This document shows, one piece after another, positions 53,481 through 56,064 of a stretch of 64,000 nucleotides of DNA. The notes below the pieces were generated by a model. The model saw nothing but the letters and a program-made list of their open reading frames with translations. It was not told the origin of the DNA and did no database searches. The DNA lies in contig JAUHWY010000004.1 in assembly GCA_030427255.1 (NCBI GenBank), forward strand, positions 1 through 64,000, written 5' to 3'. A program made the position numbers and the translations under genes. The first letter of the stretch is position 1. Each line of letters begins with the position of its first letter. This DNA comes from Bacteroidia bacterium. GTDB lineage: Bacteria; Bacteroidota; Bacteroidia; CAIKAF01.

Positions 53481-53918
53481 ATGCATCAAATTGAAATTTT
53501 GCCCCTTGAAGATTCTGACTTCAAACTACTTTCAAAGACCCGATATTTCTTCAACTGGAATGATGAAGCCAATCAAGAAGCTTATAAATTGGTGTTGAGG
53601 GGCCAAAATGACATACAAGGACTTGTTTCAATAGAGAGAATTCCTTCGGAATGGAGAATTCACATAAGACTTCTTACTGTTTAAAGAGAGAACAAAGGAA
53701 AAGATAAAAAATTTGATAGAATTACAGGCAACTTATTAGCCTATGTTGCCAAAATTGCCGTTGCTGATTATGCAGAGTTCGCATGTGTTTCGCTTAGGCC
53801 TAAAAGTGCAATTGCCCAACATTATATGGACAAGTACCATATGAATGTCACGGGCAAGACCCTCAGTTTGGAAGTTCCGGAAATTCTAAACCTCATAAAT
53901 GAATATGACCATGAATAA
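53481..53918 (+). pseudogene. GNAT-like toxin, interrupted by an in-frame stop
   Basis: The frame from 53481 runs 67 codons to a TAA at 53682-53684 and continues in the same frame to 53918. The two parts join into one recognisable protein: IHIRLLTV-stop-RENKGKDKKFDRITGNLL, then AYVAKIAVADYAEFACVSL and RPKSAIAQHYMDKYHM. That is the pattern of small GNAT-like proteins paired with HigA-like antitoxins in Bacteroidota, where acetyl-CoA-binding and NGxxxKxYxGxxGNL-type segments follow the break. One nonsense substitution explains the state. It overlaps the antitoxin start by 20 bp. The toxin identity is inferred from pattern and pairing. Confidence 0.7.
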
Positions 53919-54444
53919 TAAACAAAATATCAACGAAGTAGATGCTGAGTTTGGGATAGACTCCAGATATAAAACCAACGATGAAAGAAAGCAAGATGCT
54001 ATTGATCTAATGCAGGCACGATTGGATAGATTGAAGAACTTATCTAATGAGCAAACCCTTCGTGCAAAACTGCTGCAATTGAAGTTGCAAATGGAAAATT
54101 ACCTCCATCAACCGATTAATGACCATAAAAATCATTTTTCTTATTTCCTAGAGAAGTATATTGACATAATTTATTCGAAGAGAATAGATTTTGCTAGGGA
54201 CATGAACGTTTCCGCTAATTTCCTGAGTAAGATTATCAATAATCACCGGGAACCGAGAGAAGAGTTTATCTTAAAACTTATGATACATTCTGAAAAGGTT
54301 TTCGAGAATGTTGGAGAATTTTCTAAAAAAATCTGGTATTTGGTTTATTTTCAAGAAAAATTATACGATGCAATGTCAAGGCAAGATACATGGAGGCCTG
54401 AAATTGAGAAACAGATTAGGATACCTAAGTTGATGGATACATAA
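53899..54444 (+). CDS. HTH-type antitoxin (HigA/XRE-like)
   Basis: A 181-residue protein. After a helical N-terminal half (residues 30-70, Lys/Gln/Leu-rich, coiled-coil-like), the second half contains FARDMNVSANFLSKIINNHREPREEFILKLM, a clear XRE/HigA-like helix-turn-helix. The arrangement toxin-then-antitoxin with a 20-bp overlap fits HigBA-like order. It should neutralise the partner and repress the shared promoter, where palindromes lie at 53394-53430. The frame is intact although the toxin is broken. Base composition is clearly more AT-rich than the neighbours, a sign of acquired DNA. Confidence 0.8.
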   Translation: MNMTMNNKQNINEVDAEFGIDSRYKTNDERKQDAIDLMQARLDRLKNLSNEQTLRAKLLQLKLQMENYLHQPINDHKNHFSYFLEKYIDIIYSKRIDFARDMNVSANFLSKIINNHREPREEFILKLMIHSEKVFENVGEFSKKIWYLVYFQEKLYDAMSRQDTWRPEIEKQIRIPKLMDT

Positions 54445-54450
54445 GAACTG

Positions 54451-54544
54451 CAGCTAACAGCTACCCAAAGCGGACGATTCCGTGGTTAAGTCCAGCTTTA
54501 CCGCGGTGCTGCTTCATGGTGTGCTTGGTTGACAGTAGATTGCT
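54451..54544. repeat. 94-bp direct repeat, copy DR1
   Basis: It lies just after the antitoxin stop. It shares an exact 29-bp block (54459-54487, AGCTACCCAAAGCGGACGAT onward) and a further end block TGTGCTTGGTTGACAGT with DR2 at 55760-55854. It has internal inverted segments (GCGG...CCGC, CAGCT). No open frame explains it. Its placement after a gene cassette resembles a recombination site, but canonical integron cores are absent. Confidence 0.8.
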
Positions 54545-54573
54545 GTACCATCGGCTACTATTCTTATCCTAAA

Positions 54574-54900
54574 GAGACCGTTGACGCGTTACTATTCTGG
54601 CGGCGATCCTGCCCTGACGCTTCGGTCAGGGACTTCTTCCCTGACGCTTCGGTCAGGGACTTCTTCCCTGACGCTTCGGTCAGGATTGTAAACCCTGACA
54701 GGAACGTCAGGGTCTGCGTTGCGTCCAAATCTCAAGTTTTTTATCCTGACCGAAGCGTCAGGGGGCCTCATTTACAGATAGTAAACTCCGGCCTGCCCTG
54801 ACCGCAGCGTCAGGAGCCTTTCGATTTGTACGCGCCTTAATTCGCCCCTGACGTCTTGGTCAGGGTTATAAACTTGAAAACACAACGCATCAACGGTCTC
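54574..54900. mobile_element. MITE copy M4 (327 bp, TSD CTAAA)
   Basis: The ends are GAGACCGTTGACGCGTT and its inverse (54884-54900, one mismatch). CTAAA lies directly on both sides (54569-54573 and 54901-54905). It is the longest copy because it holds three tandem 27-bp units with the hairpin CCTGACGCTTCGGTCAGG (at 54613, 54640 and 54667) plus about four more hairpins of the same type. It lies between DR1 and the Abi module. Confidence 0.92.
54613..54684. repeat. Tandem hairpin units in MITE M4
   Basis: Three identical 18-bp hairpins CCTGACGCTTCGGTCAGG (stem CCTGAC/GTCAGG, 6-nt loop) occur at exact 27-bp steps, separated by GACTTCTTC-type spacers. Confidence 0.95.
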
Positions 54901-54938
54901 CTAAACTATTGCTGCAAGTGAAAAAGAGGGAAGTGGAG

Positions 54939-55028
54939 TTTAAAAATGCCCCCTTTAAAAATGCGAAACCCGGAAGCTTGAATTTCTTCAGGGGCTTCCG
55001 GGAACTATATCTTTATGCTATAAAGATA
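54939..55028 (+). ncRNA. Candidate AbiF-associated structured RNA
   Basis: Directly upstream of the Abi gene lie an 11-bp direct repeat TTTAAAAATGC (54939-54949 and 54954-54964) and a perfect 9-bp stem CCCGGAAGC/GCTTCCGGG (54969-55002). A second perfect 9-bp stem TATCTTTAT-GCT-ATAAAGATA (55008-55028) follows. Known abiF RNAs are structured RNAs found next to abiF genes and act as antitoxins. The position and the two hairpins fit, but I could not match a covariance model. The second hairpin may also serve as a terminator or attenuator. Confidence 0.5.
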
Positions 55029-55072
55029 CGAACAAAGGCTTAATAAACAAAATTTTTTGTGACTTTTGAAGA

Positions 55073-55746
55073 ATGAAGTATAGTGACTTTGAATATATAA
55101 TGTCACAACCAAGAATGAGCAGATATTTAAATGCTTGCGTGAAGGACACAAGAAAGGCAATGACTCTTTATAGGTTAAATTTAAAACTATCACAAGAGTT
55201 GTTTACAGTTGTCAGCTGTTTTGAAGTAGCATTAAGAAATGCCATAGATAGACACTATACATTTTTAAATGGACCAGATTGGCTTAGGGACTCGGCAAGA
55301 CCAGGTGGAATGTTTAGCAATAGAAAATGTGGAAAAACGCCTTACATAATATCGGAAGGAGAAAGGAAACTGGATGTTTACACCCACCCAAAATTAGTGG
55401 CAGAAATGGACTTTGGAGATATATGTTTGCAAGACATCAATATCATTCAGGTGGCCAATCACTATTAGCAGTTTTTCCATCTAAACCCATCAGCACCCAA
55501 ACCCATCAATTCAACAGTAACTTCATTTTCTCAGAACTTGAAAAATTAAATAATTTAAGAAATAGACTCGCTCATCACGAACCGGTTTGTTTTCAAATTG
55601 GGGCACATATTAAGGATACGAACTATGCAAGACATAGGTACCATTTAATTTTACAGCTTTTTGCTTGGATGAATATAGACGAAGCAAGTTTGCTTTATGG
55701 ACTAGACCATATAAATGAAATCTGTGACAGAATTGATAACCTATAA
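55073..55746 (+). pseudogene. Abi_2/AbiF-type abortive-infection protein, frameshifted
   Basis: The first frame (55073 to about 55416) gives FEYIMSQPRMSRYLNACVKD and FTVVSCFEVALRNAIDRHY. The first HEPN-like R-x5-H is R55...H61. The sequence then continues in the +2 frame as WRYMFARHQYHSGG to a C-terminal LRNRLAHHEPVCFQIG (second HEPN-like R-x4-H, 55558-55575) and stops at 55746. Abi_2 members read 'FGFWRYMF' at the join. Only GACTTTGG-AGATATATG is present here, consistent with loss of 7 bp between two TTTGG repeats (55412-55416). An intact AbiF is an RNase-like toxin that blocks phage growth. The candidate antitoxin RNA lies 45 bp upstream. AT-rich composition suggests acquisition. Confidence 0.75.
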
Positions 55747-55759
55747 AAAACACCAGCTG

Positions 55760-55854
55760 CCAATAGCAGCTACCCAAAGCGGACGATTCCGTGGTTGAAT
55801 CCAGCTTTACCTTCGGTACTGCTTCGATGTGTGCTTGGTTGACAGTGAATTGCT
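55760..55854. repeat. 94-bp direct repeat, copy DR2
   Basis: Same orientation as DR1, starting 14 bp after the Abi stop. The exact 29-bp block is 55768-55796, and the end block GTGTGCTTGGTTGACAGT precedes AATTGCT. The outer parts CTGCCAA and TTGACAG are near-inverse of each other. From here to 56329 no gene is seen. The region holds a possible MITE end remnant near 55931-55954 and GC-rich block I. Confidence 0.8.
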
Positions 55855-56064
55855 TTAAAATCGCCACTAGCTCAAGCGCCAAAAGGGTAATAAGTAGGCA
55901 AATAAAATCTAAGCTCAGGATTGTCACCGGAAAAGCATCGCATCAACAGGCTCATCCGGGCCCTCCAATCCCCCCAAAAGCCAGACCACTAATGTGCTTC
56001 CGGCTGCCTTACTGAATAAGACGACTTTCTTTTGGCCTGTAGGATACAAAAACTTCATAGAATG

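Follow-up and report, generated by a model that had tools for sequence, protein, structure and literature searches.

The window, by which we mean the whole stretch of 64,000 nt analysed here, holds an Abi_2 gene of the AbiF-fold HEPN type on the plus strand (55073-55746) and, directly upstream of it, a predicted small RNA of about 50-57 nt on the minus strand (54957-55014), divergent from the gene. An earlier note on this DNA had described the gene as a single frame. We found instead that the gene is split near 55410 into two frames, 55073-55468 and 55327-55746. The former encodes the N-terminal half and the open part of the latter the C-terminal half with the motif RNRLAH, while the break itself is a small out-of-frame deletion, which shows up as a several-base gap when the gene is aligned with the closest intact homologue. 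The two halves show 77% (N-terminal) and 67% (C-terminal) identity to that homologue (L008/L044), which comes from another family and is 75% identical to the window protein. The Abi_2 domain that had been proposed for the gene was recovered as a signal on the N-terminal half, but its Pfam score (PF07751, 22.6 bits) falls just under the cut-off of 25.6 because the frame is cut; L008, the closest relative, scores 31.8 bits, above the cut-off.

The frame split, together with the alignment gap near 55410, indicates that the window copy is very probably a pseudogene and that its toxin would be dead in this genome, so that the working toxin-RNA pair implied by the earlier note does not hold here. 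The break could also be an assembly error in what is really a complete working module, a reading to which the draft state of the genome (57 contigs), the intact window RNA and the lack of a visible second broken site in the gene lend some weight. However, the break spans several bases in the homologue alignment, unlike a homopolymer slip, and other genomes too have broken toxins next to intact RNAs (L011, L125, L127, L133). We consider an assembly error quite unlikely.

The module is flanked by two repeats of about 105 bp (54448-54560 and 55757-55863) that are 86% identical and lie directly after each gene. Related copies occur at G000:C44:49097-49158 in the window's own genome and at L147-L158, other genomes included. 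In the relatives, the copies are attC-like imperfect palindromes (TAACAGCACCTACCC...GGGTAGCTGCAAAACGTTA), suggestive of integron gene cassettes, while those of the window are degenerate, and a search of 10 genomes for the integron integrase TIGR02249 gave no match above the cut-off. About seven REP-like palindromes, CCCTGACGCTTCGGTCAGGG and its variants in both orientations, were observed at 54612-54867, in front of the RNA. Further to the left, at 53481-54444, a 67-aa frame and its broken continuation precede an ORF of 181 aa that matches HTH_3 weakly. This segment, of which no relatives were found on plasmids, may be another decayed pair resembling a toxin-antitoxin system.

The letters upstream of the gene bear out the 11-bp direct repeat TTTAAAAATGC (54939-54949 and 54954-54964) and the two perfect 9-bp stems that had been reported there, the first pairing 54969-54977 with 54994-55002 (CCCGGAAGC/GCTTCCGGG) and the second pairing 55008-55016 with 55020-55028 (TATCTTTAT/ATAAAGATA). 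As RNA elements they fared differently, since comparison with homologues showed that only the first stem is conserved. The second stem (55008-55028) shares letters with the -7 box of the RNA promoter and differs in the closest homologue L044, and the repeat (54939-54964), which adjoins the U-rich tail, is not conserved either; both were rejected as functional parts. The conserved element is a hairpin on the minus strand (54969-55002) made up of the 9-bp stem, a CCC bulge on the 5′ side, a 4-bp inner stem UGAA/UUCA, a 4-nt loop and one unpaired base on the 3′ side. It is followed by the terminator-like U-rich tail TTTCGCATTTTT (54957-54968), and the ends of the predicted RNA were placed from the promoter box and this U-run.

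Folded as one piece, the 168-nt upstream region is unremarkable (z -1.5), and the evidence for the RNA is therefore comparative. A protein-alignment genome scan yielded 80 loci, nearly all from Bacteroidota along with two Acidobacteria MAGs, and a pattern search placed the hairpin upstream of the start codon in 85 of the 90 loci examined. From 61 pattern-found loci we built a covariance model, R1, which finds the hairpin at 78 of the 79 genome-scan loci that have a short (about 226 aa) Abi_2 gene and sufficient flanking sequence, a count to be read with the knowledge that the training set included many of these loci. Three loci outside the training set that the pattern had missed were nevertheless detected by R1 (L046, L099, L113). 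L102 has no upstream sequence and L098 has, as judged by eye, a degenerate form of the hairpin. Plain terminator hairpins account for five weak R1 hits from Flavobacterium-like genomes (L140-L143 and L146; E 2e-4 to 9e-3), which were not counted.

Conservation of pairing among homologues, which had been named as a check, is present and strong. Across the 61 sequences, 97.1% of the cells are paired and nine of the 13 pairs show double changes, with 83 double-change cells; none of 500 shuffles reached these values, and sliding the partner strand destroyed the pairing. In the window itself, R1 matches 55014-54955 with 68.3 bits (E 4.4e-13), which upholds the earlier suggestion of a Bacteroidota locus whose structured RNA, directly upstream of an AbiF-fold gene, is still well formed. 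This is the sole R1 copy in its genome. All 45 of 45 nt compared are identical between the window RNA and that of L044, the module as a whole being 70% identical at the DNA level. In three loci (L057, L059, L088) a single toxin has two hairpins in tandem before it, reminiscent of C. difficile RCd22 with its two abiF motifs.

The RNA had been read in the direction of the gene, and on this point the comparative data disagree with the earlier note. When the paired columns are read on the minus strand they contain 50 G-U pairs and one A-C, whereas the plus-strand reading turns the same cells into 50 A-C mismatches. A run of at least four T follows the hairpin in 78 of 80 homologues on the minus strand against 2 of 80 on the plus strand. 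The Bacteroidota promoter box TAnnTTTG precedes the hairpin in 73 of 80 (2.7% would be found by chance), most commonly 20 nt from the stem, and in 65 of these 73 a TTG stands a further 17-21 nt (mostly 19-20 nt) upstream. On these three tests we rejected a plus-strand RNA, and we regard it as almost certain, from the sequence comparison, that the RNA is real and lies on the strand opposite to the toxin.

At the same position as the Bacteroidota boxes, promoters of a sigma-70-like type were observed in other lineages. The Acidobacteria loci have TTGCAT-17-TATATT, which agrees with the consensus at 8 of 12 letters, and Neisseria has TTGACG-17-TATAGT, which agrees at 10 of the 12. The window RNA has its boxes on the minus strand in the order TTG-19-TATCTTTA, with the -33 TTG at 55048-55050 and the -7 box at 55021-55028. 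The last base of this -7 box departs from the consensus, a departure (TAnnTTTA) also seen in L080 and L087, and 26 nt separate the box from the stem, where 20 is usual. Because of the departing base and the longer spacing, the window RNA may be weakly expressed or silent.

The intact relatives of the gene encode proteins of about 226 aa, and the 10 that made up the first alignment all match Abi_2 (PF07751) at E≤0.1. Two HEPN motifs had been claimed for the window protein. One of them, RNRLAH (RxxxxH; 55558-55575, in the second frame), is real: R165, N166, R167, A169 and H170 are invariant in 42 homologues. The other, RNAIDRH (55235-55255), has the spacing Rx5H and a histidine that varies among the homologues, only its RN being conserved, and we do not retain it as a second motif. 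With a single conserved HEPN motif in the protein, and an RNA that consists almost wholly of stem and terminator and lacks any spacer-like part, membership in Cas13 or type VI CRISPR was also rejected. A phage origin was discarded as well, since an IMG/VR search returned no relatives and phage records gave distant ones only.

A sequence search of the PDB reached the PbAbiF-ncRNA complex (8vz6) at E 0.14 only. We compared the AlphaFold model of the intact relative L044 (pLDDT 94) with the PDB and obtained one clear match, to this same complex (8vz6_A; Z 12.6, rmsd 3.0 over 199 residues), while the next entry scored Z 4.8. On the evidence of the L044 model, the protein group has the AbiF fold.

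We ran the covariance-model check with the Rfam abiF RNA (RF03085) that the earlier note had proposed. RF03085 gave no match in the window at its gathering score of 37 bits, and none in 54440-55800 at E up to 5. Among the homologous loci at E 0.5, the only match was L002, a different locus, which in turn is not matched by R1. The RNA is thus not the one catalogued in Rfam as abiF. In 395 genomes of the phylum, RF03085 has five hits above the cut-off, and each of these RNAs immediately precedes, on the same strand, a gene with an RNxxxH motif that encodes about 300 aa or more; in the same sample, R1 gives 18 strong hits (E < 1e-6).

The window's genome has one of these Rfam-type RNAs, at L002 (G000:C44:56726; 41 bits), co-directional with an AbiF gene. 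It carries two full-length AbiF genes, L002 and L001 (G000:C3:6292), the latter with a similar co-directional hairpin that has no Rfam match. An intact Abi_2 gene of this genome also belongs to another short Bacteroidota group (L014, L015, L016, L021, L023), where by eye we observed a different minus-strand RNA. It contains AAAGCCUCU...AACGUA and has its terminator as a separate element; by eye, its segment AAGCCUCU is similar to RF03085, again with no Rfam match. The RNA described here is absent from Rfam 15, although RNAs divergent from their toxins may already have been described by Zilberzwige-Tal et al. in their Cell paper on AbiF and Cas13.

What such an RNA might do is suggested by its better-known counterpart. 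The AbiF of C. difficile is toxic, and the ncRNA in the 5′ leader of its mRNA neutralises it by direct binding, both in cis and in trans (PMC12373285). By analogy, the RNA of the present group is probably an antitoxin to the short AbiF-fold Abi_2 toxin, and the window locus would be a decayed toxin-antitoxin or abortive-infection module. The short Abi_2 protein would be a HEPN RNase that, in the intact relatives, cleaves RNA and arrests growth, presumably as a defence against phage. The antitoxin would be the hairpin RNA of about 50 nt, transcribed from its own promoter to its own terminator and away from the toxin gene. Through its stem and the CCC/A internal loop it would bind the toxin dimer and neutralise it by blocking the RNase site, thus acting in trans on the protein, as proposed by analogy with AbiF-RCd22 and PbAbiF-AbiFr.

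Natural rearrangements bear on this proposal. Two loci, L046 and L099, have a transposase gene (read from the sequence as IS110-like and IS1595-like) between an intact RNA and an intact toxin, and in L113 the RNA is placed behind the toxin gene. Broken toxins accompany intact RNAs in the window and in L011, L013, L125, L127, L133 and L144, while L126 and L129 have kept the RNA but lack the toxin between flanks that match those of L128. Judging from these sequences, the separations and toxin losses make action in trans on the protein more likely than a cis or antisense function, and decay of the toxin with retention of the antitoxin is what would be expected of addiction modules. No toxin was present within the fetched flanks of 9 of the 18 strong R1 hits. 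The strong copies without a nearby Abi_2 gene (L124, L126, L129, L130, L131, L132, L136, L137, L145) come mostly from one genus, and because they are common there the RNA may have another role.

The alternative that survives best is antisense control in the manner of type I systems, in which the divergent RNA would pair with the 5′ leader of a longer toxin mRNA and block its expression. The RNA is indeed on the opposite strand, about 100 bp or less from the toxin start, and a longer leader would be its perfect complement. However, such pairing needs no internal covariation, while the 50:1 ratio of G-U to A-C points to a fold of the minus strand itself, with a CCC/UGA..UCA core that is fixed across lineages. 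Neither the transposases of L046 and L099 nor the position of the RNA in L113 suits an antisense role, and AbiF-fold proteins are known binders of hairpin RNAs (8vz6). We therefore consider antisense control unlikely. A cis element, that is, a bidirectional terminator or attenuator giving no separate RNA, appears very unlikely, even though a stem with a U-run has the form of a terminator and, in C. difficile, the co-directional abiF is controlled through premature termination (PMC12373285). The U-run is found only on the strand that leads away from the toxin (78/80 against 2/80), a promoter lies on that strand 20 nt ahead and is replaced at the same place by other promoter types in Acidobacteria and Neisseria, the conserved bulge and loop letters are not needed by a terminator, and stand-alone copies exist. 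Least probable is an RNA that serves as a guide or regulator for other targets (a crRNA-like ancestor or a host sRNA, with Abi_2 as effector and the orphans working with other proteins): orphan copies with no toxin nearby and the proposal that AbiF is the ancestor of Cas13 (PMC12737573) would agree with it, but the RNA has no variable guide-like segment, being taken up almost entirely by stem and terminator, and the flanks of the L126 and L129 orphans are conserved, as if the toxin had recently been deleted.

Returning to the antitoxin reading, the same arrangement reaches beyond the Bacteroidota. A minus-strand hairpin with CCC or CUC and UG..CA was seen upstream in five of the six Pseudomonadota loci with Abi_2 genes of about 220 aa that were first fetched (L176-L180, Neisseria included), and three further loci (L182-L184) have the same hairpin arrangement; this sample consists of plasmid loci. 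R1 itself gave two hits there (L176, E 1.7e-4; L182, E 0.02), the rest of the shape being recognized partly by eye. In L176, from Neisseria gonorrhoeae (NZ_CP119142.1), the short Abi_2 gene is unannotated and the divergent hairpin has a near-consensus sigma-70 promoter ahead of it. The hairpin was not seen in the actinobacterial and approximately 340-aa loci L188, L189, L192 and L193. We lean, with some reserve, towards a widespread and uncatalogued family of single-hairpin antitoxins, each about 50 nt long and built around a CCC / UG..CA core, encoded opposite short (about 220 aa) AbiF-fold HEPN toxins in Bacteroidota, Acidobacteria MAGs, Neisseria and plasmids of Alpha- and Gammaproteobacteria. 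It would be a sister to the abiF RNA system, in which AbiF together with its RNA is the proposed starting point of Cas13, and its orphan copies would be anti-addiction genes left behind when the toxin was lost.

A second RNA class for the AbiF fold, free-standing, divergent and with other bulges, would mean that RNA recognition was either reinvented or has drifted far, and the class offers a natural comparison set for studying the dependence of a HEPN toxin on a separate RNA. Because the 395 genomes gave 18 strong R1 hits against 5 of RF03085, many of the RNA partners of such defence genes probably escape annotation pipelines; R1 is directly applicable.

Among known systems, PD-T4-5 is reported to be a plasmid-borne distant relative of AbiF/D that acts in TA-like abortive-infection defence (Vassallo et al., PMC9519451). 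This E. coli plasmid defence system (PDLC04038) is the best PADLOC match of all 10 intact relatives, with a best E of 1.6e-14, but its PADLOC model, at 309 positions, is longer than the short Abi_2 group. An analogy can also be drawn with ToxIN and the type III toxin-antitoxin systems, where a structured RNA is the direct protein antitoxin of an RNase. Their toxin fold is unrelated to the HEPN/AbiF fold found here, and the single hairpin, free of tandem repeats in most loci and divergent from the toxin instead of forming one operon with it, is a further difference. The closest likeness is to abiF RNA and AbiF (RF03085; AbiF-RCd22 of C. difficile; PbAbiF-AbiFr, 8vz6), with which the group shares an AbiF-fold HEPN protein with one conserved RNxxxH, as reflected in the Z of 12.6, and an adjacent small hairpin RNA. 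In contrast to that system, the new RNA is on the opposite strand with a promoter of its own, its 5′ bulge is CCC and its 3′ bulge a single nucleotide, as opposed to 1 nt and 6 nt, respectively, in RF03085, and its protein partner measures about 226 aa instead of about 300 aa.
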